Shown: positions 17,122-38,542 of the stretch, piece by piece
Position numbering within the stretch: the first letter of the stretch is position 1
Layout: every line of letters starts with the position of its first letter
Assembly (NCBI RefSeq): GCF_009363555.1
Contig: NZ_CP045372.1
Coordinates: 558,001-622,000 of the forward strand
Origin: Sulfitobacter sp. THAF37
GTDB taxonomy: Bacteria > Pseudomonadota > Alphaproteobacteria > Rhodobacterales > Rhodobacteraceae
Length of the DNA: 64,000 nucleotides
Direction: 5' to 3'
Notes under the pieces: generated by a model
Told to the model about the DNA's origin: nothing
Database searches by the model: none
The model's input: the letters and a program-made list of their open reading frames with translations, nothing else
Position numbers and translations under genes: made by a program

Positions 17122-17700
17122 TCAGGCGTCGAGCAATCCGGCGATCTCGCCCTGCACCGCGTCGATGCTGCCCAATCCGTCCACTGCGCTCAGCATATCC
17201 TTGGCATAGTAATAGCCGATCAGGGGCGACGTCTGCTTGTAATAGGCCAGCAGCCGGATCTTCAGGCTTTCGGCATTGTCGTCTGCACGCACGGGCTCGC
17301 CCGCTGCACGGGCCTCTTCGGCACGGCCGACGATACGGTCCACCAGCACCTCGTCGTTGACCCGCAACTCGATTACCCGGTCGATCTCCTGGCCCTGTTC
17401 CGCCATCAGCCGGTTCAGCGCATCCGCCTGTTCCAGCGTGCGGGGGAAGCCATCAAAGATGAACCCGCCCTTGTTGTCGCCTTCCAGCTTTTCGCGGATC
17501 AGGCCGATCACGATCTCGTCGGTTACCAGATCGCCGCGGGCCATGACGTCCGCTACCATCTTGCCCATTTCGGTGCCCGAATCCTTGGCTTCGCGCAGCA
17601 TGTCACCGGTGGACAGCTGGACCATGTTCCGGGTTTCGACCAGGTGACGTGCTTGTGTGCCTTTACCGGCGCCGGGCGGTCCAAGGAGAATAATGTTCAT
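17122..17700 (-). CDS. adk: Adenylate kinase (short form)
   Basis: 192 aa. P-loop [11 protein letters not shown] (residues about 7-17), NMP domain with STGDMLREA, and [13 protein letters not shown] in the core. The LID region is short, going straight from VDRIVGR to a small loop, so it lacks the zinc-type LID of long adenylate kinases. It balances ATP, ADP and AMP. It is translationally coupled to secY (ATGA overlap), the conserved order. Confidence 0.96.
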
Positions 17701-19070
17701 CGACGTACAGGGCTCCGTTTCTTGCGTGGTTTTCCTTTGCCGGCACCTTTACCGCGCAATTGCGATTTTTCCAGCAGACCTTCGTACTGGTGCGCCAGAA
17801 GATGACTTTGCACCTGCTGGATCGTGTCCATCGTGACCGATACAACAATCAGTACCGAGGTGCCGCCGAAGTAGAAGGGGATCGCAAACTGTCCGCGCAG
17901 GACCTCGGGCAGGACACAGACCAGGGCCAGGTAGGCCGAGCCAAGCACCAGAACCCGGTTCACGACATATTCCAGGTATTCGGCTGTCTTCTTGCCCGGT
18001 CTGATGCCCGGAACGAACCCGTTCTGGCTTTTCAGGTTTTCCGCGACATCATCGGGTTTGAAGCTGACGTTGAAGGTATAGAAATAGGCGAAGAAGACGA
18101 TCATCGCCACGAAGAACAGCAGGTAGAGCGGCTGCCCCGGGCCGAAGTTCGCCAGCAGGAGCGACATCACCGGCCCCGTGGAATTGCCCGAGAACGTGCT
18201 GATCGTCACCGGCAGCAGCAGCAGCGACGAGGCGAAAATCGCCGGGATCACGCCCGCCGGGTTCACCTTGACCGGCAGATGGCTGGACCCGCCATCATAC
18301 ATCTTCATCCCGACCTGGCGGCGGGGGTACTGGATGTGGATCTTGCGCAGTGCGCGTTCCATGAAGACGACAAACATGATCGTCAGGACGACCATCAGCA
18401 GGACACCGACAATCACCGCCGGGCTGATCGCCCCCGACCGGCCGGAAGCAAAGAACTGGGCAATCGCGGCGGGCACTTCGGCGATGATGCCGACGAAGAT
18501 GATCAATGAGATGCCATTGCCGATCCCGCGGGAGGTGATCTGTTCACCCAGCCACATCAGGAACATGGTGCCGCCGACCAGCGTGATCATGCAGGCAATG
18601 CGGAAGTAAAGCCCCGGATCCGCGGCGATATCGCCGGCCTCCAGGCTGACCGCCAGCCCGTAGGCCTGCAATGTTGCCAGCGCCACGGTGCCGTACCGCG
18701 TGTACTGGTTGATTTTCTTGCGCCCCTGTTCGCCCTCTTTCTTGAGCTGCTCAAGAGCAGGCACCATCGAGGTCATCAGCTGAACGATGATCGAGGCGGA
18801 AATATAAGGCATGATGCCAAGGGCAAAGATGCCCATCCGCCCCAGCGCGCCGCCTGTGAACATGGACACCATGCCACCGATCCCCTGCCCCGCGCTTTCC
18901 ATGAAATCGCGCAGCGCCTGGCCGTCGATCCCCGGCACCGGAATGAAGGTGCCCAACCGGTAGACGATCAGCAAACCCAGCGTGAACAGGATCCGGTTGC
19001 GCAGGTCTGTCGCCTTGCCCAATGCGGACCAGCTGGTGTTGGCGGCCATGTTTTCGACGGCTGATACCAT
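17697..19070 (-). CDS. secY: Protein translocase subunit SecY
   Basis: 457 aa, ten membrane helices. Landmarks: [26 protein letters not shown] at helix 1, the plug-region [23 protein letters not shown], and the cytoplasmic loops with [13 protein letters not shown] and [18 protein letters not shown]. It forms the protein-conducting channel with SecE and SecG. The start [14 protein letters not shown] fits Rhodobacterales homologues. It lies 122 bases downstream of rplO. Confidence 0.97.
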
Positions 19071-19192
19071 GAGGGGTCTCTTTTTTTGCTATGCAAACGC
19101 CGCCCCGACCGTTTTCCGGCGGGCGGCGTTCTGGGAAAACTCGAAGAAACATGTAAGCGGGTCGCTGCCCGCCCACAAGCCTTGAGGACCGA

Positions 19193-19675
19193 TTACTCGG
19201 CCGAAGCCGCCGCCGCGGGCGCGGTGACGGTCACGGAACCGCCCGCCTTTTCCACAGCTTCGACAGCCGACTTTGACGCGCCTGCGACGTGCAGGTCGAT
19301 CTTGGACGTAATGTCGCCCTTGGCCAGAACGCGGATGCCGTCCAGGCTGCGGCGGACAAGGCCGGAAGCGACCAGCGCATCGGAGTCGATCGCCTTGCCT
19401 GCGTCCAGTTTCTTCGCGTCGATGAATTTCTGGATCAGGCCCAGGTTCACAACGGCAAAGCTCTTGCGGTTCGGCTTGTTGAAGCCACGCTTGGGCAGAC
19501 GCTGGTAGAGCGGCATCTGGCCGCCTTCGTAGCCCTTGATCGCCACGCCGGAGCGGGACTTCTGACCCTTGATACCACGGCCACCCATCTTGCCCTTGCC
19601 GGAGCCGGGGCCGCGACCGACGCGCATCCGCTTCTTGGCGGCACCGGGATTGTCGGAAAGTTCGTTCAGTTTCAT
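19193..19675 (-). CDS. rplO: 50S ribosomal protein L15
   Basis: 160 aa. It starts [12 protein letters not shown] and has the L15 core [24 protein letters not shown] Gly/Lys/Arg stretch. The C-terminal half ends in an Ala-rich tail. An upstream in-frame start would add 28 unrelated residues. It is the first gene of the third ribosomal block: its normal upstream neighbour rpmD is 3.1 kb away, and it has its own promoter at 19774-19802. Confidence 0.96.
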
Positions 19676-19773
19676 GTCGCTTCTCCTTTTGCCGGAATTG
19701 GCCCCCAGCGACGGGAGCGGCCAAACGCGGCGTTCACGAATCTCAGGCGGACACGGCATGCGTCCACCGGGCG

Positions 19774-19802
19774 CGTATAGACGAGCCCCGCCGCAGGATC
19801 AA
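19774..19802 (-). promoter_or_regulatory. sigma70-like promoter for rplO-secY-adk
   Basis: Minus strand: -35 TTGATC (19802-19797), 17-base spacer, -10 TATACG (19779-19774), about 100 bases ahead of the rplO start. The gap between rpmD and rplO is filled by plus-strand coding sequence and a terminator, so a promoter here is expected. Confidence 0.65.
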
Positions 19803-22609: not shown

Positions 22610-22769
22610 CTCCAAAAACCTTCACTCAGAACGAACCGACCACAATCCGACAGCGCCGCCGCATTGCCGCGCCAGTATTATCTGAAAATTGCGCCAACGT
22701 CGGACAATTTTTCACGCCCTGCTCAAAAAGAGCAGGCCATCCCCCTGCGCAAAAGATATCCGAATGCAA

Positions 22770-22829: not shown

Positions 22830-23018
22830 TCAGCCTTTTTCTTCGATGATCTCGACCATATGGGGGATGGAATTGATCATACCGCGCACGGAAGGCGTAT
22901 CTTCCAGTTCACGAGTGCGGTTCATCTTGTTCAGGCCCAGCCCGATCAGCGTGGCACGCTGTTTTGCGGGGCGGCGGATCGGCGAGCCGATCTGCTTTAC
23001 GACAATGGTTTTCGCCAT
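22830..23018 (-). CDS. rpmD: 50S ribosomal protein L30
   Basis: 62 aa. [33 protein letters not shown] sequence, the diagnostic L30 pattern, then [17 protein letters not shown]. It starts 3 bases after rpsE. Downstream the operon is interrupted: the next ribosomal gene rplO lies 3.1 kb away. Confidence 0.95.
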
Positions 23019-23021
23019 GAT

Positions 23022-23603
23022 TTAGGCCTCCTCGGCTACGTGCGAAGACGCTTCATTCGTGTCTTCACGCTTGGGCAGGATGTCCGCGACCTTTTTGCCG
23101 CGACGCTGCGCGACGGCACGGGGGGACTGCTCTTTCTTCAGGCCGTCCATGGTGGCGCGGATCATGTTGTAGGGGTTCTGCGAGCCGACGGACTTGGACA
23201 CAACGTCCTTCACGCCCAGCATTTCGAACACGGCACGCATCGGACCACCGGCGATGATCCCGGTCCCTTCGGGAGCGGTCCGCATCACGACCTTGCCAGC
23301 ACCCCAGCGACCGTTCATGTCGTGGTGCAGGGTGCGGCCTTCGCGCAGCTGCACGCGGATCATCTGGCGCTTGGCCTGCTCGGTCGCCTTGCGGATCGCC
23401 TCGGGGACCTCCTTGGCCTTGCCCTTGCCGAAGCCGACGCGGCCCTTCTGATCGCCGACGACGACCAGCGCGGCAAAGCCGAAACGCTTGCCGCCCTTGA
23501 CGGTCTTGGACACACGGTTGATCGCCACGAGGCGGTCTGCGAATTCAGGGGTCTCATCGCGCTGATTGCGGCGGTTGCCCCCACGGTTGTCGTCTCTGGC
23601 CAT
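23022..23603 (-). CDS. rpsE: 30S ribosomal protein S5
   Basis: 193 aa. Core motifs: [24 protein letters not shown] and [21 protein letters not shown]. The N-terminal 20 residues are Arg/Asn/Asp-rich ([14 protein letters not shown]), as in other Rhodobacterales. S5 helps decoding fidelity. It is preceded by a 148-base gap holding two palindromic repeats. Confidence 0.96.
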
Positions 23604-23683
23604 CTGCGGCCTCCTTGATCTGCGGACGCAAGCGCCCTTATTTGGGTCAATCTTGGTGAGCGGAAGGCTCCCGGATCATCGAA

Positions 23684-23704
23684 GGTGCGCATCGCATGCG
23701 CACC
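23684..23704. repeat. GGTGCGCA-type palindromic repeat, copy 2
   Basis: GGTGCGCA / TGCGCACC stem, 5-base loop, followed by CTACAG. It lies in the rplR-rpsE gap and is arranged head to head with copy 3, so GCGCACCCTAC and GTAGGGTGCGC can also pair across 13 bases. Confidence 0.8.
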
Positions 23705-23725
23705 CTACAGCTTTCTCAATCGTAG

Positions 23726-23746
23726 GGTGCGCATTCACTGCGCACC
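23726..23746. repeat. GGTGCGCA-type palindromic repeat, copy 3 (inverted)
   Basis: Same 8-bp arms around TTCAC, here preceded by CGTAG rather than followed by CTACG, so it is the inverted orientation of copies 1 and 2. It starts 6 bases before the rplR stop on the other side. Confidence 0.8.
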
Positions 23747-23751
23747 GCCAC

Positions 23752-24111
23752 TTAGATCTTCAGACCGCCTTCGCGGGCTGCATCGGCCAATGCCTTGACT
23801 TTCCCGTGGTACAGGAAACCGCCACGGTCGAAATAGGCTTCTTCCACTCCGGCTTTCTTGGCGCGTTCGGCGATCGTCGCGCCGACCTTGGTCGCCGCTT
23901 CGATGTTGTTCTTGCCGACCATGCCCAGGTCCTTTTCGAGTGTCGAAGCGGCGGCAATCGTCTTGCCGGCCAGATCGTCGATCAGCTGAACGCTGATGTT
24001 CTTCGACGACCGGTGCACCGAAAGACGCATGCGGCCCGCATTGACGCGGCGAAGTTTGTTCCGAACGCGCAGGCGGCGTTTGATAAACAACTGTCTTTTC
24101 GTGTTTGCCAT
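23752..24111 (-). CDS. rplR: 50S ribosomal protein L18
   Basis: 119 aa. It starts [20 protein letters not shown]. It contains [20 protein letters not shown] and [30 protein letters not shown], the L18 C-terminus. L18 binds 5S rRNA. The longer in-frame start upstream falls within rplF and was rejected. Confidence 0.96.
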
Positions 24112-24122
24112 CTGTGCGTTCC

Positions 24123-24656
24123 TTACTTCTTCTTGCCTTCTTTGCGGAAGATGAACTCGCCCTTGTAGCGGATGCCTTTGCCCTTGTAGGGCTCGGGCTT
24201 GCGCCACGCGCGGATGTTCGAAGCGACTTGACCAACCAGCTGTTCGTCAATGCCTTCCACAACGATTTCGGTCTGCTTGGGCGCGGATACGGTCACGCCG
24301 TCGGGCGCGACATAGTCCACGTCATGGGACAGGCCGAGGTTCAGTTTCAGCGTGTTGCCGGTCATTGCGGCACGATAACCCACACCCTGGATCTCCAGCT
24401 CTTTCTTGAAGCCTTCGGTCACGCCGGTGACGAGGTTCGCCACCATGGTGCGGGACATGCCCCACTGCTGGCGGGCGCGCTTGGACTTGCCGCGCGGGGT
24501 CACGGTGACAACGTTGTCCTCGACCGACAGGGTGACGTCGTCGGTCGCCTTGAAGCTGCGGCTGCCCTTGGGGCCCTTCACTTCAATGGTCTGGCCCGAG
24601 ACGGACGCGGAGACGCCGCTGGGCAGTTCGACCGGTTTTTTACCAATACGAGACAT
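24123..24656 (-). CDS. rplF: 50S ribosomal protein L6
   Basis: 177 aa. [15 protein letters not shown] opening, GPKGSRSF in the first repeat, and the C-terminal motif [19 protein letters not shown]. Standard L6 at the factor-binding site of the 50S subunit. It is spaced 10 bases from rpsH and 11 from rplR. Confidence 0.97.
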
Positions 24657-24666
24657 CGAATTCTCC

Positions 24667-25059
24667 TTAGAATACGGTGCAGAGCACTTCGCCGCCAACA
24701 TTGGCAGTCCGTGCAGCGGCATCCGACATCACACCCTTGGGGGTGGAGACAATCGACACACCCAGGCCCTGACGGACCGACGGGAGGTCTTGTGCGCCCA
24801 TGTAGACGCGGCGACCGGGCTTGGACACCCGCTTGAGCTCGCGGATCACGGGCTCGCCCTCGTAGTATTTCAGGCTGATTTCGATGGCGGGGTGGCCGTC
24901 GGCGCCCGTCACTTTCTCGTAACCGCGAATGTAGCCTTCGTCGGCCAGCACATCCAGCACCCAGGCACGCAGCTTGGAGGCCGGTGTCATGACGGTGGAT
25001 TTGCCGCGCATCTGGCTGTTGCGGATGCGGGTCAGCATATCTGCGATAGGATCGTTCAT
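24667..25059 (-). CDS. rpsH: 30S ribosomal protein S8
   Basis: 130 aa. [20 protein letters not shown] start and the invariant C-terminal block [21 protein letters not shown]8 binds central-domain 16S rRNA and in enterobacteria autoregulates the spc operon; the site for that is not evident here. Confidence 0.97.
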
Positions 25060-25071
25060 TGCATGCGCTCC

Positions 25072-25377
25072 TTACCAGCTCGACTTGACCATGCCGGGGA
25101 TCTGACCGGCAGAGCCGAGATCACGCAGCGCGATACGCGAGATTTTGAGTTTACGGTAATAGGCGTGCGGACGGCCCGTCAGCTGGCAGCGGTTGTGCAG
25201 GCGCACCGCGCTGGAGTTGCGGGGCAGTTTCGCCAGCTTCAGGGAGGCGCGGAAACGCTCTTCCATCGGCTTGCTTTCGTCGCTGATGATGTCCTTCAGC
25301 GCGGCACGCTTCGCTGCGTATTTCTTGACCATTGCTTCGCGCTTCTTCTCGCGCTCGATCATGGATTTCTTAGCCAT
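25072..25377 (-). CDS. rpsN: 30S ribosomal protein S14 (zinc-free type)
   Basis: 101 aa. [20 protein letters not shown] start and the C-terminal [23 protein letters not shown]. Only one Cys is present, so it is the long, zinc-independent S14 form, as usual in Proteobacteria. Confidence 0.97.
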
Positions 25378-25396
25378 ATCTAATCCTTCCCCGCGC

Positions 25397-25960
25397 TCAG
25401 GAATTGAAAGGCATGTTGAACGCTTTCAACAATGCTTTCGCTTCTGCGTCGGTTTTCGCCGTCGTGGCGATGACGATGTCCATACCCCAGCTTTCATCGA
25501 CCTTGTCGAAGTCGATTTCAGGGAACACGATGTGCTCTTTCAGGCCCATGGCATAGTTGCCACGACCGTCGAAAGACTTGCCCGAAATGCCGCGGAAGTC
25601 GCGGATACGGGGCATTGCGATCGTGATCAGACGATCCAGGAATTCATACATGCGCTCACCGCGCAGGGTCACTTTCGCACCCAGCGGCATGTCTTCGCGC
25701 ACACGGAAACCGGCGATGGATTTCTTGGCGACCGTGGTCAGCGCCTTCTGGCCTGCGATACGCGTCAGATCTTCCTGCGCGCTCTTGGCTTTCTTGCTGT
25801 CGCGCACGGCTTCGGCACCACACCCGATGTTCAGCACGATCTTGTCGAGGCGCGGAATCATCATGTCGTTCTTGTAGCCGAATTCTTCCTTCAGCTTCGC
25901 CCGGATCTCGTCGCGGTAAACGCTCAGGAGGCGGGGTGTGTAGGTTGCGGTATCAAGCAT
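25397..25960 (-). CDS. rplE: 50S ribosomal protein L5
   Basis: 187 aa. Motifs: [38 protein letters not shown], and [21 protein letters not shown]5 holds 5S rRNA in the central protuberance. The start overlaps the end of rplX by 8 bases, implying coupled translation. Confidence 0.97.
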
Positions 25961-26264
25961 CGATCACGTCCCCCGTGGTTTTGGCAAAGCGCACTTTCTT
26001 GTCGCCTTCAATCTTGAAGCCCACGCGCGTCGCCTTGCCGTTGGCATCGACGATGGCGAGGTTGCTCAGGTCGATCGGCATCGCCTTGGGGATGCGGCCG
26101 CCCTGGCTTTCCTGGGACTGGCGGGTTGCGCGGATGGCCATGTTGATGCCTTCCACGACGGCCTTGCCGGACTTGGGATCCACGGACTGGATATTGCCCG
26201 TCTTGCCCTTGTCCTTGCCGGCCAGAACGATGACCTTGTCACCTTTGCGAAGTTTGGCAGCCAT
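25953..26264 (-). CDS. rplX: 50S ribosomal protein L24
   Basis: 103 aa. KOW motif near the N-terminus ([22 protein letters not shown]) and [19 protein letters not shown]24 is an assembly initiator of the 50S subunit. The start overlaps the rplN stop by one base; the end overlaps rplE. Confidence 0.97.
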
Positions 26265-26632
26265 TACAGCACCTCCGGCGCGAGCGAGATGATCTTCATG
26301 AAGTTTTTGCCGCGCAGCTCGCGAACCACCGGCCCGAAGATCCGGGTGCCGATCGGCTCGTTGTTGTTGTTCAGGATGACGGCGGCGTTGCGATCGAAAC
26401 GGATGGCGGTGCCATCGTCGCGACGTACTTCCTTGGCGGTGCGCACGACAACGGCCTTGCGGACGTCGCCTTTCTTCACACGACCGCGGGGGATGGCTTC
26501 CTTGACCGACACGACGATGATGTCGCCGACGGACGCGTACTTACGCTTGGAACCACCCAGTACCTTGATGCACTGAACACGGCGTGCGCCGCTGTTGTCA
26601 GCAACATCCAGGTTGGTCTGCATCTGGATCAT
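26264..26632 (-). CDS. rplN: 50S ribosomal protein L14
   Basis: 122 aa. [27 protein letters not shown] and the C-terminal [19 protein letters not shown] are diagnostic. It is the first gene of the classical spc operon; here it follows rpmC and rpsQ on the same strand as expected, though those two are cut off from the rest of S10. Confidence 0.97.
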
Positions 26633-26701
26633 TTGGTTTCTCCCGACCTTTGGGGGGCGATGCGTGCCTGATCCCCAGGGTTTCGATTAACGGTTGGTGC
26701 G

Positions 26702-26941
26702 TCAGGCCTCAGCGGCTTGCAGCACTTCCCAACGTTTGGTCTTAGACTTCGGCGCACATTCGATGATGCGAACGCTGTCGCCTACCTTGTAGGTGTTGTT
26801 CTCATCGTGGGCCCGGTATTTCTTGGACTTACGAATGGTCTTTTTCAGAACCGGATGCGTAAAGCGGCGCTCTACGGAAACGGTGACGGTCTGTGCGTTT
26901 GCGTCGGAGGTCACGACACCGGACAAGATACGCTTGGGCAT
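26702..26941 (-). CDS. rpsQ: 30S ribosomal protein S17
   Basis: 79 aa. [26 protein letters not shown] and the H-E-N-x-Y-K-V-G-D pattern followed by [15 protein letters not shown]. The 69-base gap to rplN shows no clear terminator. In the normal order it belongs to the end of the S10 operon. Confidence 0.96.
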
Positions 26942-26952
26942 TGGTGCTCTCC

Positions 26953-27156
26953 TTATTCCGCAGCGGCCGCTTGGGCCTTTTGATTCAACACTGTCTTGAC
27001 GCGGGCGACGTCACGCTTGACGGTACGCAGGCGCGCGGGGTTTTCCAGCTGGCCGGTGGCTTGCTGGAAGCGCAGGTTGAAGGCTTCTTTCTTCAGTGTG
27101 ACAAGCTCGTCCCGGAGCTGGTCCGGTGTCTTGTCTTGCAGTTCCTTGGCGTTCAT
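26953..27156 (-). CDS. rpmC: 50S ribosomal protein L29
   Basis: 67 aa. [31 protein letters not shown] is the L29 pattern, with [19 protein letters not shown] behind it. An in-frame start upstream would add 38 residues with no L29 similarity. It is the first gene of the second ribosomal block. Its expected upstream neighbour, rplP, is 9 kb away on the opposite strand. Confidence 0.95.
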
Positions 27157-27223
27157 TGACGCTTTCCTTTCAACATCACCAGTAGGCCCCCGAGGGGTGA
27201 CCATGATTCTGGTGGAGTTCATG

Positions 27224-27270
27224 ATGAGGGGTGCCAATACGCCGGGAGCCTTCGCAACGCAACCCCTCAT
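27224..27270. promoter_or_regulatory. Possible rpmC promoter flanked by a 9-bp inverted repeat
   Basis: ATGAGGGGT (27224-27232) and ACCCCTCAT (27262-27270) form a perfect inverted repeat. Between them, on the minus strand, lie -35 TTGCGT (27262-27257), 17 bases, and -10 TATTGG (27239-27234). The hexamers are weak, but this is the only region from which rpmC-rpmD can be transcribed after the rearrangement. Confidence 0.35.
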
Positions 27271-27358
27271 ATCGAATCCCCTGAATAATCGCGGGTTTCG
27301 CCGTCAGCCGGTCCGCTTCCCTCTCGCCTTGCGGCGGGTGCTGGGATATCCAGCCGTC

Positions 27359-27979
27359 ATGACTGATATCAGATCCCTCTTCGTGACCCGCCTTTACCAT
27401 GCCGCCCTGTCGGCGCATGGGCCTGCCATCGACCCGGACGAGATGGAGGCGTCGTGCTACTCCATCGCGGAAGATGACGAGGCAGGGCAGCAATGGTCCG
27501 AGGATAACGGTTATCCCGGCTACACCTCCTATGCATCGCTGACCGACCTGCCCTACCGCTTTCCGATCTTCAAGGATCTGGTCGAGGCGCTGGACAGACA
27601 TGTCGCCGCCTTTGCCGAGGATCTGCAATTCGACCTGGACGGCAAGACGCTCAAGCTGGAGGACCTATGGATCAACATCCTGCCCGAAGGCGGCATCCAC
27701 ACCGGACACCTTCACCCGCATTCGGTGATTTCAGGCACCACTTATGTCGCCATGCCTGACGGGGCCAGCGCCATCAGGTTCGAGGACCCGCGCCTGCCGA
27801 TGATGATGGCCGCACCGGGACGGGTAAAGGATGCGCGGCCCGAGATGCGCACATTCGCTTATGTCGCCCCCAAGGTCGGCGATGTGCTGCTGTGGGAAAG
27901 CTGGCTGAGGCATGAGGTGCCGATGAACATGTCCGAGGACGACCGCATTTCCGTCAGCTTCAACTACAGCTGGGGCTGA
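27359..27979 (+). CDS. 2OG-Fe(II) oxygenase family protein (TIGR02466-like)
   Basis: 206 aa. The cupin-like core has GGIHTGHLHPHSVISGTTYV with candidate iron-ligand His118 and His121, then RHEVPMN with His185 and RISVSFN with Arg196 for 2-oxoglutarate. This layout matches the putative 2OG-Fe(II) oxygenases grouped as TIGR02466. The substrate is unknown. It is a single gene on the plus strand, divergent from rpmC, followed by a strong terminator. Confidence 0.8.
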   Translation: MTDIRSLFVTRLYHAALSAHGPAIDPDEMEASCYSIAEDDEAGQQWSEDNGYPGYTSYASLTDLPYRFPIFKDLVEALDRHVAAFAEDLQFDLDGKTLKLEDLWINILPEGGIHTGHLHPHSVISGTTYVAMPDGASAIRFEDPRLPMMMAAPGRVKDARPEMRTFAYVAPKVGDVLLWESWLRHEVPMNMSEDDRISVSFNYSWG

Positions 27980-27990
27980 CACGGAAACGC

Positions 27991-28027
27991 AAGACACCGC
28001 CGGTTTCGAACCGGCGGGGTCTTTTCA
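27991..28027 (+). terminator. Terminator shared by the oxygenase and the coiled-coil gene
   Basis: A 15-bp stem with one mismatch (AAGACACCGCCGGTT, loop TCG, matching arm) followed by TTTTC on the plus strand; the minus strand also has a short T-run. It lies 12 bases after the plus-strand stop and 17 before the minus-strand stop, so it probably works both ways. Confidence 0.8.
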
Positions 28028-28043
28028 GTGTCATCCGGCGATA

Positions 28044-29582
28044 TCAGTTATCCGTCTGCCGTGGTGTTTCCCCGGACTGATCCGTGTCCGTGTCCGTCGT
28101 GCCGCTTTCCTCTTCCGAAGCGTCAGGGGAACCCGTGTCAGCCTCTTCGCTGTCCGCGCTTTCGTCCTGCGCACTGCTGTCGGTAGCGGCTTGCGCATCG
28201 TCTGAGCCTTCGGAAGTCTCAGATGCCGTCTGGCCAGCCTCAGACCCCTCTTCGGTGCTGGCAGAAGTTTCGCCGTCGGTCTCCGGTGCGGTGTCCTGAC
28301 CCGTCGACGCATCGTCCTGCTGTGCGCTCGACGCGTCGGATCCACCTTCGCTCGTGGCGTCAGTCTGGCCTGCACCTTCGGACGCAGCCTGGTCATCACC
28401 TGAGGCAGGTTCATCATTCCCGTTCGTTGTCGCGGCCTGATCGTCCTGCGCGCTGTCATCGCTGCCTTCGGTCGCGCCTTGCTGCTGGCTGTCGCCTTCG
28501 GCAGCCGTGGTATTGTCGTCTCCGGACTGGGATGACGCCTGGCCGCCCTGCTCTTCCGCGCCTTCACCTTCGGATTGCGCCGCCGCATCGCTTCCGCTCT
28601 CGGACTGTGCCGCTGGATCGCTCTGCTCGGAATCCGCATCGGCAGCCTGACCGGTCTCAGCGCCGGACTGGCGGCTGGTCGCGCTGTCGCCCTCAGCCGC
28701 CTCTTGTTCGGACCCGGCGGCAGCGCCGCTGTCAGACATGTCCTCACCCTGCATTTCGCTGATGCGCTTTTCGATTTCCAGCAGCTTGTTCGACCGGTCC
28801 TCCACGTTGGAGGTCAGCTCCGTTACCAGCTGCTGCACTTCCTGACGCTGCGCCTCGGCCTCCTCCACGTCTGCCGCCAGCGCCGTGCGCTCCTGCGTCA
28901 TTCTGTCGATGTCCGAGGTCAACGTCTCCTGGCGTTGCTCCATCTCGGTGATGCTGGTTTCCATCGAGTTGACCTGTTCGCGCAGATCGCTTTCCTGCTG
29001 GCTCAGTTCCTGCATCTTGGCCTCGGACGCCGCCACCTCGTCGGACAAACGCGCGCTGTCGTCCGTCAGGGAGGCCAGCGTCTCGCGCACGTCAGCTTCT
29101 TCCTGCCGCGCCTCTTCAAGGCGGGCATTCACGTCGCTCAGCTCTTGCGTCTGGGTTTCGATCTCGGAGTTCAGTTCGCTGCGACGCGCCTCGAAATTGG
29201 TGATCTCCTCGCGCATGGGGGCCAGCTGCGCCTCCAGCTCGTCGGCGCGTTGCTGCTGGGTCGCGACTTCGCTTTCAGCGGCGGCCTGCTGGGCCTGCAT
29301 TTCCTCCAGCTGCGGCTGCAGGGTGTCGATCTCGCCCTGCACCGCGTCACGTTCCCCTTCGAGCGTTTCGATCTCGGGCTGCATGCCGTCGATCTGTGCC
29401 CGCAGCTCTTCTATCGTGCCCTCGGCGTTCTCACGCTGGGTGATGTCGCTCTCAAGACGCTGGATCGCGCGGTCGGACTGGCCATTTTCTGTCACGAAAT
29501 AGAGCGCCGTGCCCCAGCCCAGAACCGCCACCGCGCCAACGGCCACCAGTTCCTTGTTCCACGATGTCTTGCTGTCAGCCAT
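28044..29582 (-). CDS. Membrane-anchored coiled-coil protein with long acidic low-complexity tail
   Basis: 512 aa. A single hydrophobic segment lies near residues 13-31 (AVGAVAVLGWGTALYFV). A long coiled coil follows, about residues 35-270, rich in Glu, Gln, Leu and Arg. The last 230 residues are almost only Ser, Gln, Asp, Glu, Gly, Ala and Thr, and should be disordered and strongly acidic. I do not recognise a family; an envelope or cell-wall-spanning role is possible. The start at 29582 has an AGGGGG box nine bases upstream; an ATG nine bases earlier is less well placed. Confidence 0.75.
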   Translation of the reverse strand: MADSKTSWNKELVAVGAVAVLGWGTALYFVTENGQSDRAIQRLESDITQRENAEGTIEELRAQIDGMQPEIETLEGERDAVQGEIDTLQPQLEEMQAQQAAAESEVATQQQRADELEAQLAPMREEITNFEARRSELNSEIETQTQELSDVNARLEEARQEEADVRETLASLTDDSARLSDEVAASEAKMQELSQQESDLREQVNSMETSITEMEQRQETLTSDIDRMTQERTALAADVEEAEAQRQEVQQLVTELTSNVEDRSNKLLEIEKRISEMQGEDMSDSGAAAGSEQEAAEGDSATSRQSGAETGQAADADSEQSDPAAQSESGSDAAAQSEGEGAEEQGGQASSQSGDDNTTAAEGDSQQQGATEGSDDSAQDDQAATTNGNDEPASGDDQAASEGAGQTDATSEGGSDASSAQQDDASTGQDTAPETDGETSASTEEGSEAGQTASETSEGSDDAQAATDSSAQDESADSEEADTGSPDASEEESGTTDTDTDQSGETPRQTDN

Positions 29583-29755
29583 TCTGTGCATCCCCCTGCC
29601 GGCCCCGTCGAGCCGTGAAATAATGTCAATATAAACCTAGGAACGCCAAGACCCGGCCAACGGTTCCACCAATTCAAGCCTCAGCGGTAAAGTCATGTGA
29701 CAGCCACGGCACCCAGCCAGCTGGCCCGGGCTCTGGACCCATTAGCCCGAAACGC

Positions 29756-30241
29756 TCAGTTTCCAGAGCCCGCCTCCAGCCGCTTGCGCGAGCCGCTCAT
29801 CGCGCCGGTCGCCGGTACCAGAGACGCGGCCTTGCCCAAGCCGAAGTCGGGCATCCCACTATATACCGTCTCGTACTCGCCTGCCCGCACCAGGTAGGTC
29901 TCGTGCCAGATCCCCACATCGGCACGTGAATTGCGCGCCCGCTTGTTGAACGCCTTCCACGCCGGAAAATGCGCCGCGTCCGGCGCATTGGCATAGGTCT
30001 CAAGATGATCGTAGCTGCGCCAGTACTGGACCAGCGTGCCAAACCCCAACGTGGTGTACCCAAGAAACCCGGTCTCTGCCGCCGGGCGGGCTTGCAGTTC
30101 GCGCAGCATTCGGGGCATCGCCAATACTGCCGGCAGCCATTTCTGCGGCTTCCAAGGGCGGTTGATCCGTATGCCGATCAGAAAGACCACGAAATCGCCC
30201 TCGATCCTCGCGCTCAGTCGCTTGTCATTTATCTGCGCCAC
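29756..30241 (-). CDS. DUF4188-like protein
   Basis: 161 aa from a GTG at 30241, preceded by AGGGG. The core [39 protein letters not shown] is the pattern I associate with DUF4188, followed by GFLGYTTLG and [14 protein letters not shown], which resembles dimeric alpha-beta-barrel (monooxygenase or aldoxime-dehydratase-like) folds. Function unknown. A longer frame reaches 30337 but its extra residues look non-coding. It is divergent from the secreted-protein gene at 30367. Confidence 0.65.
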
Positions 30242-30366
30242 CTGCCGCCCCTTTTGCCGACTGTTGCCACCAGAGGGTACACCCTGAGAGCCATCTCGCC
30301 TATGGCCTTCGGCAAGGGCCAGAATGACACCTGACACCGCAACGATAATCGCGGTATGGTGGGGAC

Positions 30367-30936
30367 ATGATGCACCTACGCTCCACGCCCCGAATTGCCC
30401 CGGCCTTTCTGCTGGTCAGCCTTATCGCCCTCTTTTCGCTGCTGGCACCGGCTGCGGGCCGCGCCGCCGGTATCGGCGCTTTCATCGGCGACTACGAAGG
30501 CGAAGCAACAGTGCTCATAGACGGCGAGACCCTGCACCGTGACCTGAGCGTCACCATTAAGGCAGAGGACGACGACGGCTTTACCCTGAGCTGGACAACG
30601 GCCACCCTGCGCGAAGACGGTCGCCGCAAGGAAAAGAGATACACCATCACCTTTCTCCCCAGTGCCCGCCAGGGCATCTACCAGTCCGCAATGAAAACGA
30701 ACCTCTTTGGCAAGGCCACGCCGCTGGATCCGTTGCAGGGCGAACCCTTTGTCTGGGCACGGATCGAGGAAGATACGCTGTCGGTGTTTTCACTGTTCAT
30801 CGACCCCACGGGCGACTACGAGGTTCAGGAATATCACCGCACGCTGGCGCCGGGCGGGCTGGAGCTGATGTTTCGCCGTATCCGCGACGGCGAAGCCGAA
30901 CGCGAGATCAGCACCCTGCTGCGCCGACGGGACTGA
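30367..30936 (+). CDS. Hypothetical secreted protein
   Basis: 189 aa. Residues 1-34 form a signal peptide (hydrophobic core [18 protein letters not shown], Ala-x-Ala near the end). The rest is soluble, beta-rich in appearance ([31 protein letters not shown]), with no Cys and no family I know. Two adjacent ATGs (30367, 30370) could start it. It lies directly upstream of the S10 promoter. Confidence 0.6.
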
Positions 30937-30982
30937 AACCGGCGAAAACCACGCGGAAGGCGGGGCGGCCCGAACTGACCCC

Positions 30983-31011
30983 TTGCCACGTTCCGGTGCA
31001 TCCCCTATAGC
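30983..31011 (+). promoter_or_regulatory. sigma70-like promoter of the S10 block
   Basis: -35 TTGCCA (30983-30988), 17-base spacer, -10 TATAGC (31006-31011). It sits about 125 bases ahead of rpsJ in a gap with no other gene. Confidence 0.65.
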
Positions 31012-31135
31012 ACGGCCATTGAGTCGGGGTGCGTCCACACGCGCCCCGTTTCACTTACACACCAAGACGCGACGAGGGCGTGCGATGAGCGCCGTCCTCC
31101 AATCCGTTGACATCCCAAAGACAAGGGATTTGCAC

Positions 31136-31453
31136 ATGGCTCAAAGCCAGAACATCCGCATTCGCCTGAAGGCGTTTGACTACCGGGTGCTTGACAGCTC
31201 CACCCAAGAAATTGTTAACACCGCCAAACGCACCGGCGCCTCTGTTCGCGGCCCGATTCCGCTGCCGAACAAGATCGAGAAATTCACCGTTCTGCGTGGC
31301 CCCCACGTCGACAAGAAATCCCGTGACCAATTCGAAATCCGCACGCACAAGCGTCTGCTGGATATCGTCGATCCGACCCCCCAGACCGTGGACGCGCTGA
31401 TGAAGCTCGACCTCGCCGCTGGCGTGGACGTCGAGATCAAGCTGCAATCGTAA
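31136..31453 (+). CDS. rpsJ: 30S ribosomal protein S10
   Basis: 105 aa. [15 protein letters not shown] and [36 protein letters not shown] are invariant S10 sequence; S10 also serves in Nus antitermination. The start MAQSQNIR fits the family and has AAGGG nine bases upstream. A second in-frame ATG at 31085 with its own GAGGG box would add 17 residues (see findings). First gene of the S10 block. Confidence 0.97.
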
Positions 31454-31466
31454 GGAGGGCAAGAAC

Positions 31467-32339
31467 ATGTTGCGCTCAGGCGTTATTGCTAAGAAAGTCG
31501 GCATGACCCGGCTGTTCATGGAAGACGGGCGTCAGATCCCCGTTACCGTTCTTCAACTCGACAAGCTTCAGGTCGTTGCACAGCGCACCGCAGAGAAAGA
31601 CGGCTACACCGCCGTTCAGCTCGGCGCGGGCACTGCAAAGGTCAAGCGGACCTCCAAGGCGATGCGCGGCCACTTTGCCGCCGCTTCCGTGGAACCCAAG
31701 CGCAAGGTTGCCGAATTCCGCGTGGACGCGGACAACCTGATCGCGGTGGGCGAGGAAATCATCGCCGACCATTACTTTGCCGGTCAGTATGTTGACGTTG
31801 CGGGCACCTCCATCGGTAAAGGTTTTGCCGGTGCGATGAAGCGCCACAACTTCGGCGGTCTGCGCGCCTCGCACGGCGTGTCGATCTCGCACCGTTCGCA
31901 CGGTTCCACCGGCCAGTGCCAGGACCCCGGCAAGGTGTTCAAGGGCAAGAAGATGGCCGGCCACATGGGTGCCGCCCGTGTCACCACGCAGAACCTCGAA
32001 GTCGTCAAGACCGACAGCGCGCGTGGTCTGATCATGGTCAAGGGCGCCGTTCCCGGCTCCAAGGGTGGCTGGGTCACTGTCAAGGACGCGGTCAAGAAAC
32101 CGTTCCCCGATGACGCGATCCTGCCCGCCGCGCTGAAGTCCGCCGCCGACGAAGCCGCGAAAGCCGCCGAAGAGGCAGCCGCCGCAGCCGCAGCCGAGGC
32201 AGAGGCCGAAGCAAAGCGTCTGGCCGAAGAGCAGGCCGCGCAGGAAGCCGAGGCGCTGAAGGCAGCCGAAGAGGAAATCGCAGCCGAAGGTTCCGATGAA
32301 CCGGCCGCTGACGAAGACAAGAAAGAAGGTGACGCATGA
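31467..32339 (+). CDS. rplC: 50S ribosomal protein L3 with acidic Ala/Glu-rich C-terminal extension
   Basis: 290 aa. Residues 1-215 are ordinary L3 ([38 protein letters not shown]-type loop; [13 protein letters not shown]). From about 218 a tail of some 70 residues follows, almost only Ala, Glu, Lys and Asp ([20 protein letters not shown] and more), predicted helical or disordered. L3 lies near the peptidyl-transferase centre. It overlaps rplD by ATGA. Confidence 0.96.
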
Positions 32340-32953
32340 AACTCGATGTCATCAAACTCGACGGCGGCAAGGCCGGTTCGGTAGATCTGGACGAGGCCCT
32401 GTTCGGCCTTGAGCCACGCGCCGACATCCTGCACCGCGTCGTGCGCTGGCAGCGTAACAACGCCCAGCAAGGCACGCACAAGGTCAAGACACGGTCCGAA
32501 GTCAGCTACTCGACCAAGAAGATCTACCGTCAGAAAGGCACCGGCGGCGCACGCCACGGCGCGCGCTCTGCTCCGATCTTCCGCAAGGGTGGTATCTACA
32601 AGGGTCCGACCCCGCGCAGCCACGGCCACGAGCTGACCAAGAAGTTCCGCAAGCTGGGCCTGCGCCACGCGCTGTCGGCCAAGGCGAAAGCGGGCGCTCT
32701 TGTCATCATCGACGAGGCGACTTCGGAAGGGAAGACCGCCGCACTGGCCAAGCAGATCAGCTCTCTGGGCTGGAAGCGCGCGCTGGTGATCGACGGAGCC
32801 TCAGTCAATGAAAACTTCGCCCAGGCGGCCCGCAACATCGAAGGTCTCGATGTGCTGCCCTCCATGGGTGCAAATGTCTATGACATCCTCAAGCGTGATA
32901 CCCTGGTGATCACGAAAGCGGGTGTCGAAGCACTGGAGGCCCGTTTGAAATGA
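32336..32953 (+). CDS. rplD: 50S ribosomal protein L4
   Basis: 205 aa. L4 pattern: [40 protein letters not shown] block (the exit-tunnel loop) and [25 protein letters not shown]. In enterobacteria L4 represses its own operon; the needed leader structure is not obvious here. Overlaps rplC and rplW by 4 bases each. Confidence 0.97.
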
Positions 32954-33246
32954 GCGCCAAGCACGAACATTACGATGTGATCCGCAAGCCGATCATCACC
33001 GAAAAAGCGACCATGGCATCCGAAGCCAACGCGGTTGTTTTCGAAGTGGCGATGGACAGCAACAAGCCCCAGATCAAAGAGGCCGTCGAGGCGCTCTTCG
33101 GTGTCAAGGTGAAGGCCGTGAACACGACCATCACCAAGGGCAAGGTCAAGCGTTTCCGCGGCCAGATCGGCACGCGCAAAGACGTCAAGAAGGCCTATGT
33201 GACGCTGGAAGAAGGCAACACGATCGACGTGACCACCGGTCTCTGA
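32950..33246 (+). CDS. rplW: 50S ribosomal protein L23
   Basis: 98 aa. [19 protein letters not shown] opening, [18 protein letters not shown], and [14 protein letters not shown] at the end. L23 docks trigger factor and SRP at the tunnel exit. It is followed by an unusual 398-base gap with two terminator-like hairpins before rplB. Confidence 0.97.
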
Positions 33247-33252
33247 TCGGCT

Positions 33253-33270
33253 GGTGGGTCGCAACCCACC
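33253..33270. repeat. Divergent GGTGGGT palindrome related to the GGTGCGCA repeats
   Basis: GGTGGGT / ACCCACC stem of 7 bp with loop CGCA, followed by CTACC. The layout (GGTG..., stem, CTAC flank, position between ribosomal genes) is like copies 1-3, with the arm changed on both sides so that pairing is kept. Confidence 0.5.
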
Positions 33271-33287
33271 CTACCGCAAGAACGCAA

Positions 33288-33317
33288 GGCCCCTGACCGC
33301 AAGGTCGGGGGCTTTTT
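33288..33317 (+). terminator. Terminator-like hairpin after rplW
   Basis: GCCCCTGACC (33289-33298) and GGTCGGGGGC (33303-33312) pair with one G-T wobble around GCAA and are followed by TTTTT. It has the form of a factor-independent terminator although it lies inside the S10 gene series. Confidence 0.7.
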
Positions 33318-33523
33318 CTGTGCCGGGGTCGCGGGATGGACTGCTTGCTAGGCCCTTGGGAAAGGCACAGAGGGGACAACCTGAAGGCTTCTGCAGGCAT
33401 GTCTGCTCCCTACGGCCCGGTCATGCGATGTTTCATTGTCCAGGTGAAAGGGATATTGGTGAATGCAACGCCTTCGGCCCCTTGACCCCCCACTCAATCC
33501 CCCCTAAACGACCCCATCGGCCT

Positions 33524-33549
33524 AGCCCCGGATTCGTCCGGGGCTTTGC
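33524..33549 (+). terminator. Second terminator-like hairpin ahead of rplB
   Basis: Perfect 9-bp stem AGCCCCGGA / TCCGGGGCT with a TTCG tetraloop (33533-33536), followed by a broken T-rich stretch TTGCCTTTG. It may be a terminator or, given its place about 100 bases before rplB, a leader structure. Confidence 0.5.
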
Positions 33550-33644
33550 CTTTGTTCGCATGGACACAAAATCGGGGACCTTCGGGGCCCTATAACCATA
33601 GCCGCCCTTCGGGGTGGCGCACAGCTAAACGGAAGACAGACAAC

Positions 33645-34487
33645 ATGGCACTCAAGTCGTACAAACCGACGACGCCGGGCCAGCGTGGGCTGGTACTGAT
33701 CGACCGTTCGGAGCTTTGGAAAGGACGCCCCGTCAAGGCCCTCACGCAGGGTCTGACGAAATCGGGCGGTCGGAACAACACCGGACGGATCACAATGCGT
33801 CGTACAGGTGGTGGTGCAAAGCGCCTCTACCGTATCGTTGATTTCAAGCGCAACAAGCTGGACATGTCCGCTGTTGTCGCGCGGATCGAATATGACCCGA
33901 ACCGGACAGCCTTCATTGCCCTGATCCAGTACGAAGATGGCGAACAGGCCTATATCCTGGCGCCTCAGCGTCTGGCCGTCGGTGACAAGGTCATCGCGGG
34001 CGCGAAGGTCGACATCAAGCCGGGCAACGCGATGCCCTTCTCCGGCATGCCCATCGGCACGATCGTCCACAACATCGAAATGAAACCCGGCAAAGGCGGT
34101 CAGATCGCCCGTGCCGCAGGCACCTACGCACAATTCGTGGGCCGCGATGGCGGCTACGCCCAGATCCGTCTGAGCAGCGGCGAACTGCGCCTGGTGCGTC
34201 AGGAATGCATGGCCACCGTCGGTGCCGTCAGCAACCCCGACAACTCCAACCAGAACTACGGCAAAGCGGGCCGCATGCGTCACAAGGGCATCCGCCCGTC
34301 TGTGCGTGGTGTGGTGATGAACCCGATCGACCACCCGCACGGTGGTGGTGAAGGCCGGACCTCTGGTGGTCGTCACCCGGTGACGCCTTGGGGCAAGCCG
34401 ACCAAGGGTGCCAAGACCCGCAACAAGAACAAAGCGTCCAGCAAGCTGATCATCCGCTCGCGGCACGCCAAGAAGAAGGGGCGTTAA
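33645..34487 (+). CDS. rplB: 50S ribosomal protein L2
   Basis: 280 aa. [15 protein letters not shown] start, [17 protein letters not shown] and the invariant C-terminal [22 protein letters not shown] with the catalytic-centre His. L2 joins the subunits and supports peptidyl transfer. A 33-codon upstream extension in the same frame was rejected. It opens the second half of the S10 block. Confidence 0.97.
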
Positions 34488-34490
34488 TAG

Positions 34491-34769
34491 ATGTCTCGTT
34501 CAGTATGGAAAGGCCCTTTTGTCGACTCTTATGTCCTCAAGAAGGCCGAAGCGTCGCGTGAGAGCGGCCGGAACGAAGTGATCAAGATCTGGTCCCGCCG
34601 TTCCACGATCCTCCCGCAGTTTGTCGGCCTGACGTTCGGCGTCTACAACGGTCACAAGCACATTCCCGTCAACGTCAGCGAAGACATGATCGGTCAGAAG
34701 TTCGGTGAATATTCCCCGACACGGACCTACTACGGTCATGCCGCAGACAAAAAAGCAAAGCGGAAATAA
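34491..34769 (+). CDS. rpsS: 30S ribosomal protein S19
   Basis: 92 aa. [20 protein letters not shown], then [40 protein letters not shown] S19 sequence. It binds the 30S head beside S13. It is tightly spaced, 3 bases after rplB and 3 before rplV. Confidence 0.97.
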
Positions 34770-34772
34770 GCC

Positions 34773-35153
34773 ATGAGCAAGGATAAGAATCCCCGCCGCG
34801 TGGCAGACAACGAAGCGCGCGCAAAGCTGCGCATGCTCAAGACGTCGCCGCAGAAACTGAACCTCGTTGCTGGCCTCATCCGCGGCAAGAAGGTGGAGCG
34901 TGCCCTCACGGACCTCACCTTCTCCAAGAAGCGGATCGCGGTGGACGTGAAGAAATGCCTTCAGTCCGCCATCGCCAACGCCGAAAACAACCACAACCTG
35001 GACGTGGACGAGCTGATCGTGGCCGAAGCCTATGTCGGCAAGAACCTGACCATGAAGCGCGGTCGCCCGCGTGCGCGTGGCCGGTTCGGCAAGATCATGA
35101 AGCCGTTTGCCGAAGTCACCATCGTCGTGCGTCAAGTTGAGGAGCAAGCATAA
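34773..35153 (+). CDS. rplV: 50S ribosomal protein L22
   Basis: 126 aa. [31 protein letters not shown] and the tunnel-loop [14 protein letters not shown]. The C-terminal EEQA end overlaps the rpsC start (TAATG), so the two are coupled. Mutations in the tunnel loop are a known route to macrolide resistance in the family; nothing unusual is seen here. Confidence 0.97.
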
Positions 35154-35860
35154 TGGGTAACAAAGTAAACCCGATCGGCATGCGCCTGCAGGTCAACCGC
35201 ACTTGGGACAGCCGCTGGTATGCCGATACGAAGGACTACGGCGATCTGCTGCTGGAAGACCTGGCCATCCGCGCCTTCATCAAGGAAGAGTGCAAGCAGG
35301 CCGGCGTAGCCCGTGTGATCATCGAACGCCCGCACAAGAAGTGCCGTGTGACGATCCACACCGCGCGTCCCGGCGTCATCATCGGCAAGAAAGGTGCGGA
35401 CATCGAAGGCCTGCGCCAGAAGATCGCCAAGATGACCAGCTCGGAACTGCACCTCAACATCGTCGAGGTCCGCAAACCCGAACTGGACGCCGCCCTGGTC
35501 GGTGAGAGCATCGCACAGCAGCTGGAGCGCCGGGTGTCTTTCCGCCGCGCCATGAAGCGTGCGGTTCAGAACGCCATGCGCATGGGTGCCCTGGGTATCC
35601 GTGTGAACCTCGCAGGCCGCCTCGGCGGTGCCGAGATTGCCCGGACCGAATGGTACCGCGAGGGCCGCGTGCCCCTGCACACCCTGCGCGCGGACATCGA
35701 TTATGCGCATGTCGAGGCATCCACCGCCTATGGCATCATCGGGATCAAGACCTGGATCTTCAAAGGCGAGATCATGGAACATGACCCGGGCGCCCGTGAC
35801 CGCAAGCACCAGGAACTTCAAGACGGCCCAGCACCTCGCGGTGCCGGCGGTCGCCGGTAA
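35153..35860 (+). CDS. rpsC: 30S ribosomal protein S3
   Basis: 235 aa. [23 protein letters not shown] start, KH domain with [16 protein letters not shown], and [30 protein letters not shown]. The tail is Gly/Arg-rich. S3 lines the mRNA entry channel. Confidence 0.97.
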
Positions 35861-35871
35861 GGAGTAGATAG

Positions 35872-36285
35872 ATGCTACAGCCAAAACGGACGAAATTCCG
35901 CAAGCAGTTCAAAGGCTCGATCAAGGGTCTGGCAAAGGGCGGGTCTGACCTGAACTTTGGCACCTACGGCCTGAAGGCGCTGCAGCCGGAGCGTGTGACA
36001 GCACGTCAGATCGAAGCCGCACGCCGTGCCATGACGCGCCACATGAAGCGTCAGGGCCGCGTCTGGATCCGCATCTTCCCGGATGTACCCGTGACCTCCA
36101 AGCCCGTCGAAGTGCGTATGGGTAAGGGTAAAGGTTCTGTCGACTTCTGGGCAGCCAAGGTCAAGCCCGGCCGGATCATGTTCGAAATCGACGGTGTCGG
36201 TGACGACGTGGCCCGCGAGGCGCTGCGCCTGGCCGCGATGAAGCTGCCGATCAAGACACGGGTTGTCGTACGCGAAGATTGGTAA
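35872..36285 (+). CDS. rplP: 50S ribosomal protein L16
   Basis: 137 aa. [24 protein letters not shown] and [33 protein letters not shown] are diagnostic. It is the last gene of the plus-strand S10 block. In the usual order rpmC follows; here a terminator, then a toxin-antitoxin module, follow instead. Confidence 0.97.
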
Positions 36286-36370: not shown

Positions 36371-36406
36371 AAGCCCCCGCTGAGACATCAGCGGGGGCTT
36401 TCTTTT
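36371..36406 (+). terminator. Terminator after rplP
   Basis: Perfect 13-bp stem AAGCCCCCGCTGA / TCAGCGGGGGCTT around GACA, followed by TCTTTTT. It ends the S10 transcript 86 bases past the rplP stop, where in other genomes transcription would go on into rpmC. Confidence 0.9.
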
Positions 36407-36429
36407 TGCATGCCGCTTCTTACAGATTC

Positions 36430-36493: not shown

Positions 36494-36679
36494 ATGGCGA
36501 ACAATACGAAAAAAACCGTAGTAAACGGGGGATGGATCGCCCGTAACGCAAAAAGCGGTAAGTTCGTCGCCGTCGGGACGAGCGTGAGTACGTCGAAAAG
36601 CAACCCGAAGACGGTTAAGACGATCAAAGAAGTCTCCAGCAAGCGAGGCGTTGCGTTGCAGCGACTTGCGGATCGGTAA
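36494..36679 (+). CDS. Putative antitoxin of a Doc-type toxin-antitoxin module
   Basis: 61 aa, rich in Lys, Ser, Thr and Val (MANNTKKTVVNGGWIARNAK...KEVSSKRGVALQRLADR). I recall similar small proteins beside Doc toxins but see no standard DNA-binding motif. It lies just ahead of the toxin and its end overlaps the toxin frame by 29 bases. GGAG lies 3 bases from the ATG, which is close; a GTG nine bases upstream is possible. Confidence 0.6.
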   Translation: MANNTKKTVVNGGWIARNAKSGKFVAVGTSVSTSKSNPKTVKTIKEVSSKRGVALQRLADR

Positions 36680-37061: not shown

Positions 37062-37149
37062 GGCAACAGACCGACCAAGGGAGAAAAAGTGGCGAAAAAA
37101 GCCAAGTAGCTCTCTTTCCTAGACCAATCCCTCCTCCGCCAGCTCTACC

Positions 37150-37183
37150 AAAGAAGACATGTCATATTTGACATGTCTTCTTT
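37150..37183. repeat. Short AAGACATGTC hairpin
   Basis: Perfect 15-bp stem (AAAGAAGACATGTCA and its complement) with a TATT loop, followed by T and GCG on the plus strand. Shares the core AAGACATGTCA with the long palindrome at 11422-11479. Placed 88 bases after the toxin stop, it may serve as its terminator. Confidence 0.85.

Positions 37184-37366: not shown

Positions 37367-38542
<1,176 letters not shown>

Follow-up and report, generated by a model that had tools for sequence, protein, structure and literature searches.

The S10 and spc clusters of ribosomal-protein genes follow each other in an order that is a textbook example of conserved bacterial gene order, the reason for its conservation being debated. 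In the window analysed here, a stretch of 64,000 nucleotides from Sulfitobacter sp. THAF37 (contig NZ_CP045372.1, positions 558,001 to 622,000; genome G000 in what follows), this order is broken: rpsJ to rplP lie on the + strand and rpmC to rpmD on the - strand, as an earlier note on this DNA had described with the right coordinates. Read from right to left, the locus consists of tuf (-), a doc-like gene pair, rplP-rplB, rplW-rpsJ and orf189 (+), a monooxygenase-like gene (mono) and the gene of a 515-residue protein (p515) (-), a 2-oxoglutarate (2OG)-Fe(II) oxygenase gene (+) and rpmC-rpmD (-); L29, the rpmC product, is encoded by a single copy in the genome. Comparison with relatives reveals an inversion confined to a single clade, three open joints within the S10-spc cluster, covarying RNA structures ahead of the blocks, and co-occurrence of the leader preceding rpmC with the split between rplP and rpmC. 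Coordinates are collected in Table 1.

The genus was sampled by searching 58 Sulfitobacter genomes for L16 (rplP) and L29, which were found together on one contig in 53 of them (three of the other five lack both, one lacks L29 and one has the genes on different contigs). The two genes are opposed in four of the 53 genomes (G000, G007, G053 and G057) and co-oriented in 49, at distances of 1.2 to 28.8 kb, the widest gap being that of G028 (28.8 kb, L083-L084). The four inverted genomes form one clade with a support of 1.000 in a FastTree phylogeny of 47 genomes, six of the 53 having been left out for missing genes; this agrees with the single inversion proposed in the earlier note. The inverted order recurs on contigs of 1.0 Mb in G053, 3.84 Mb in G057 and 25.7 kb in G007.

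The flipped piece is about 6.8 kb long (about 30.35-37.2 kb) and both of its cuts are intergenic, one between mono and orf189 (about 30338-30366) and the other between doc and tuf (37062-37366). At the new junctions doc faces tuf (the G007 contig ends within the last codons of tuf), and orf189 faces mono in G000 and p515 in G007, G053 and G057. As in a chromosomal inversion, the segment is reversed, its internal order is kept and its neighbours are exchanged at both ends. Among the 49 non-inverted genomes orf189 occurs in eight, always upstream of rpsJ, and it directly follows tuf in the six that have tuf within the stretch. The oxygenase gene is divergent from and upstream of rpmC in 53 of 53 Sulfitobacter genomes, 151-2237 bp away (within 300 bp in 29), and the 27.2-30.3 kb stretch beside rpmC, with oxygenase, p515 and mono, has kept its orientation. 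G014, which is non-inverted, has a doc-like pair 3' of rplP. Between rplP and the oxygenase gene, G018, G033 and G055 carry a mono-like gene and G021 a p515-like one. The positions of oxygenase, orf189 and doc in non-inverted relatives identify the flipped piece as orf189-rpsJ...rplP-doc. The ends just before rpmC and just after rplP that the earlier note had proposed are thus misplaced, the oxygenase being divergent at rpmC throughout and orf189 and doc lying outside the ribosomal genes.

The inversion also bears on the direction of transcription relative to replication. In G000 dnaA lies to the right of rplP at a distance of about 378 kb, and after orientation the relation is the same in G053 (389 kb) and G057 (394 kb), dnaA being on another contig in G007. 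If the origin is near dnaA, the inverted block appears to be head-on to replication in G000, G053 and G057; by dnaA position, the non-inverted G009 and G031 are co-directional with it. Within the window, 14 of 16 bins have a negative GC skew on the + strand. At four-fold sites on the S10 coding strand GC skew averages -0.260 in inverted and -0.198 in non-inverted genomes (4 vs 18), the corresponding values for spc being -0.192 and -0.206. A lower S10 skew in the inverted clade is what would be expected after a change of strand; values nearly as low occur in the non-inverted G031, G054, G039 and G052, and the inversion has one origin only. TA skew showed no difference between inverted and non-inverted genomes (4 vs 18).

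The split between rplP and rpmC is older than the inversion and reaches far beyond the genus. In a sample of 198 Rhodobacteraceae genomes, about one per genus, 127 carried both genes among the matches listed, and 108 remained once 19 with the genes on different contigs had been dropped. Among these, again within the matches listed, the genes are co-oriented within 20 kb in 104, with gaps below 350 bp in 24 and of 0.8-20 kb in 80; the remaining four are G000, G066 and G102, where they are opposed, and G184, where they are on the same strand 249 kb apart. Across the class (115 genomes, 103 with both rplP and rpmC) the two genes are adjacent, 18-122 bp apart, in 99 of 103. The four others are G000, G275 from the same family as G000 (7.2 kb), G327 (440 bp) and G270 (a 0.6 Mb genome with a weak L29 match). 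The earlier note saw in the inversion the cause of the split, which is contradicted by the 49 of 53 Sulfitobacter genomes that are split while co-oriented and by the 80 of 104 co-oriented family genomes that are open at this joint. Its description of the arrangement as rare holds for the inversion and fails for the split.

Openness is restricted to particular joints. Between tuf and rpsQ, the open joints in Sulfitobacter are tuf/rpsJ (n=32), rplW/rplB (>1 kb in 41 of 47 genomes, the gaps being 99 bp too small because the rplB query started 33 residues before the true start) and rplP/rpmC (>1 kb in 49 of 49 co-oriented genomes), the other eight joints measuring <=23 bp (n=46-53). In the named loci, which are the best 80 of a longer scan, selected through the oxygenase and in part from genomes that the other samples also include, rplW/rplB exceeds 300 bp in 49 of 59, its gaps again being 99 bp too small, and the other block-internal joints are <=46 bp. 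From rpmC to secY only rpmD/rplO is open; this joint exceeds 300 bp in 22 of 22 Sulfitobacter genomes and in 45 of 53 named loci. Just three internal S10-spc joints are therefore open in the genomes measured, and each of them opens a block headed by a leader. Blocks have also moved in other genera, independently and with breaks at the same joints: the rplB-rplP block lies about 207 kb from its partners in G102 and is reversed in G066 (the 12.4 kb fetched there did not include rpsJ-rplW), in both cases with the L2 leader still in front, and in G184 rplP is found with the oxygenase gene 249 kb from rpmC.

The leader preceding rpmC was characterised in an alignment of the window sequence with 88 family loci. 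It comprises 12 pairs with 98.3% of cells paired and both-side changes in eight pairs; none of 500 shuffles scored as high, and slid controls gave 39-60%. The covariance model matches the window with 71.6 bits (E 6.5e-19, the window being a training row) and has this single match in its own genome. As in known ribosomal leaders, a covarying structure is combined with a steady place just upstream of a ribosomal-protein gene. The leader is present in 52 of 52 other Sulfitobacter loci, in 79 of 79 split family loci (all of them training rows) and in 15 of 24 unsplit family genomes (four of the 15 being training rows). The nine others, all with gaps <=133 bp, are the only family genomes in which it is missing, so that leader presence and split are associated (Fisher p 5e-7). 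The model is matched by 74 of the 80 named loci, the remaining six being without rpmC; all 73 named loci holding rpmC carry the leader. Outside the family, stricter filters left no credible match in 113 class genomes (five score 19-22 bits), the credible matches among the 115 being just the two family members. When the model was searched for rRNA mimicry against the genome's own 16S and 23S, with the S8 site of 16S rRNA in mind, the best score was only 7.6 bits (E 1.3).

A second candidate leader precedes rplO. Its covariation score over 54 sequences is 0.345, compared with 0.126 in shuffled alignments (0/500), and 0 of 500 shuffles reach any of four measures other than the number of both-side pairs. 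The outer stem is uninformative because it is invariant. The model gives 101.7 bits (E 1.7e-18) on the window, which is itself a training row. Its hairpin loop comes in two types (33/54 and 21/54 rows), each with complementarity to the ribosome-binding region; this points to a pseudoknot that may control translation. The candidate rpsJ leader, aligned from Sulfitobacter only, has 96% of its cells paired and 14 both-side pairs (0/500 shuffles). The L2 leader before rplB is a described family (RF03142); for the rpmC, rplO and rpsJ leaders Rfam holds no match at or above the gathering score. A hairpin CCCCGGATTCGTCCGGGG or close variant with a T-rich tail was also observed ahead of rplB (window 33526-33544, +). 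In 45 of 47 Sulfitobacter genomes it lies about 95-210 nt upstream of the start of rplB whatever the insert size, and it is possibly an attenuator ahead of the L2 leader.

Promoter-like and terminator-like sequences are also present. The promoter-like sequence upstream of rpmC is identical in the other inverted genomes, and a terminator-like hairpin was found after rplP in 47 of the 53 Sulfitobacter genomes, the four inverted ones among them. That each arm has its own promoter and terminator, as put forward in the earlier note, is correct insofar as sequences of this kind exist; however, the rpmC leader, the rpsJ promoter region and the hairpin after rplP are also found in non-inverted relatives and are thus not products of the inversion.

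Table 1. Positions, in window coordinates, of the ribosomal-protein blocks, candidate leaders and neighbouring features.
Feature	Position	Strand	Remarks
Inverted segment: orf189, rpsJ-rplW, rplB-rplP, small open reading frame (ORF) + doc-like gene	30340..37200		gene order, 53 Sulfitobacter genomes
Block 1: rpsJ rplC rplD rplW	31136..33246	+	internal gaps <=23 bp in genomes measured
Block 2: rplB rpsS rplV rpsC rplP	33645..36285	+	internal gaps <=46 bp; moves as a unit in G066, G102
Block 3: rpmC rpsQ rplN rplX rplE rpsN rpsH rplF rplR rpsE rpmD	22830..27156	-	
Block 4: rplO secY	17697..19675	-	may extend further
rpsJ	31136-31453	+	
rplP	35872-36285	+	
rpmC	26953-27156	-	
rpmD	22830-23018	-	
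Candidate rpmC leader RNA	27154..27240	-	core hairpin about 27177-27214; covariation, 89 sequences
Candidate rplO leader RNA	19673..19783	-	stem 19691-19731; covariation, 54 sequences
Candidate rpsJ leader RNA	31021..31135	+	covariation, 39 Sulfitobacter sequences
L2-Alphaproteobacteria ribosomal leader RF03142, before rplB	33574..33642	+	68.5 bits, E 2.4e-14
Promoter-like TTGCGT-N17-TATTGG upstream of rpmC	27234..27262	-	read from the sequence
Promoter-like TTGCCA-N17-TATAGC upstream of rpsJ	30983..31011	+	putative, by its letters
Intrinsic terminator-like hairpin after rplP	36372..36407	+	
tuf (EF-Tu)	37367..38542	-	
Small ORF 36494-36679, overlapping Doc-like toxin gene 36651-37061		+	Doc-like: TIGR01550, PF02661
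orf189	30367..30936	+	upstream of rpsJ in 8 non-inverted genomes too
PF13826 monooxygenase-like gene (mono)	29756..30337	-	putative start codon
p515: 515-aa coiled-coil protein, acidic tail	28044..29591	-	
2OG-Fe(II) oxygenase TIGR02466/PF13759	27359..27979	+	divergent neighbour of rpmC

As for the genes that occupy the open joints, the oxygenase scores 287.8 bits against TIGR02466 (curated cut-off 62.5), and a homologue in either orientation was found in 70 of 80 fetched family loci (78 split ones, G066 and one unsplit locus, the latter without oxygenase). The TIGR02466 homologues 2RG4 and 3BVC are uncharacterised crystal structures; its other nearest folds are diverse 2OG oxygenases including prolyl hydroxylases, and a prolyl hydroxylase of Pseudomonas putida that was solved with EF-Tu ranks among the weaker fold matches. 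The enzyme may have a role in ribosome modification, but gene association gives no support for it: none of four strong orthologues (>200 bits) from outside the family has rplP as a neighbour, and the long named loci L157 and L164 carry the oxygenase without any ribosomal gene match. An association with ribosomal genes beyond this lineage, looked for as a sign of a YcfD-like ribosomal oxygenase, was thus not found in these four. For p515, which combines a long coiled coil with a highly acidic Ser/Gly-rich tail, only the generic coiled-coil model PF10473 passes its cut-off in Pfam and NCBIfam. L202, from another genus, has a doc-like pair resembling that at 36494-37061 in its rplP gap; in L192 the doc-like gene stands by itself. 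An aldehyde dehydrogenase (+) and an acyltransferase (-) gene lie between rpmD and rplO (window 20184-22615). Elsewhere in the G000 assembly (C1, C3), 23S rRNA has two matches and 16S one, and one rRNA operon may be incomplete.

We consider it likely that leaders and own promoters have turned the S10-spc genes into autonomous blocks, permitting insertion, inversion and relocation. The supercluster of the Rhodobacteraceae would then consist of four blocks in a row (rpsJ-rplW, rplB-rplP, rpmC-rpmD and rplO-secY), each with a start of its own, headed by a structured leader and freed from read-through of the preceding one. Owing to this freedom the joints could accept inserted genes and whole blocks could flip or move, so that foreign genes between blocks, or the reversal of a pair of blocks, would cost little. 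In the ancestor of one Sulfitobacter clade, a single inversion of about 6.8 kb with intergenic cuts would have flipped blocks 1 and 2 together with orf189 and the doc-like pair. A succession of leader first and split afterwards fits the tables. We infer that the leaders are transcribed and bind a protein ligand, with a regulatory function and an enabling role in these rearrangements, and that events followed this order. A more specific version, for which we see about even chances, is that the Rhodobacteraceae evolved new autoregulatory leaders (rpmC, rplO and rpsJ, besides that of L2), each block being self-balanced by feedback; the constraint on gene order would thus have dissolved, and nine ribosomal-protein genes could persist head-on to replication in one Sulfitobacter clade.

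Several observations count against the autonomy of the blocks as set out here, or against parts of it. The ancestral order is a composite, all of its genes being together in no single non-inverted genome, and orf189 is present in just eight of the 49. In the rplO leader, 10 of 500 shuffles reach its six both-side pairs and one pair is unpaired in 32 of 54 rows. Leader and split share their phylogeny, so that the Fisher p overstates independence. With 366 columns and 7 of 101 branches starred, the family tree lacks the strength to tell which came first, leader gain or split, and the leader state needs five changes on it; a single clade for the leader-less rows is not rejected (approximately unbiased test, p 0.653).

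The alternative that fares best, although we regard it as unlikely, is that the rplP/rpmC gap is a neutral or mobile-element insertion hotspot and that the conserved hairpins bind no ribosomal protein and serve as ordinary elements of promoters, terminators or RNA stability. The toxin-antitoxin-like pair, the variable content of the gap and its extension in G028 would fit this idea, as would the absence of an rRNA-like counterpart of the covariance model in the genome's own 16S or 23S. However, a hotspot does not account for only the same joints being open across the genomes measured, nor for a structured element after each open joint that goes with the ribosomal gene downstream rather than with the insert, nor for strong covariation near start codons. 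Much less probable is the scheme of the earlier note, according to which an S10-spc operon, until then intact, came apart through a single inversion whose ends lie just before rpmC and just after rplP. It fits the opposite strands and reading directions, but would not explain that rplP is directly next to rpmC in 0 of 53 genomes, nor the places of the oxygenase gene, orf189 and the doc pair in non-inverted relatives. Equally hard to sustain, and if anything less credible, is a programmed switch in which the block is flipped by a dedicated recombinase or inverted repeats. The independently reversed block of G066 and a 17-nt inverted pair of 88% identity (29796/37449) flanking both cuts could be cited for it, but that pair lies inside mono and tuf, two intact genes that an exchange there would disrupt. 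Inverted repeats, which inversions often but not always have at their ends, are not seen at the intergenic cuts among the 25 longest of 43 inverted pairs, and all four clade members have one orientation. An assembly error, for which no sign was found, is very improbable, since the window lies inside one contig (C1) and the same order is found in four clade-forming assemblies with contigs up to 3.84 Mb.

Repeated breaks of the S10-spc order run through a whole family; in the genomes measured they are restricted to three internal joints, each followed by a leader, which makes the locus a place to test whether co-transcription and shared feedback hold gene order together. The leaders are candidates for spc control outside E. 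coli-like bacteria, and the inverted clade offers a natural experiment in which ribosomal genes would be transcribed head-on to replication. Among the matches listed in open-access full text, no title or abstract reports the split or the leaders.

The closest known relative of the elements described here is the L2-Alphaproteobacteria leader RF03142, likewise a structured RNA directly before a ribosomal-protein gene of the S10 cluster, which heads the rplB-rplP block in this locus; in contrast to it, the rpmC, rplO and rpsJ leaders precede other genes and lack an Rfam match. The L2 leader in Alphaproteobacteria was classed as borderline by Eckert and Weinberg 2020 (PMC7247131), whose Table 1 gives none of the rpmC, rplO and rpsJ leaders for Alphaproteobacteria and whose main text holds no mention of rpmC or L29. 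In pathogenic Leptospira, according to the account in PMC2481283, the S10-spc-alpha locus is without signs of disruption within a plastic genome; the same ribosomal cluster is kept there, whereas the Rhodobacteraceae open theirs at fixed joints. In E. coli, as outlined in a 2024 review (PMC10931766), the spc operon is under feedback by S8 and the S10 operon under feedback by L4. The predicted control in Rhodobacteraceae would resemble this in that ribosomal-protein operons of the same cluster carry mRNA structures, but differ from it in having an element ahead of each of four blocks, those starting with rpsJ, rplB, rpmC and rplO, and in that no rRNA-like site was recognised in the rpmC leader.

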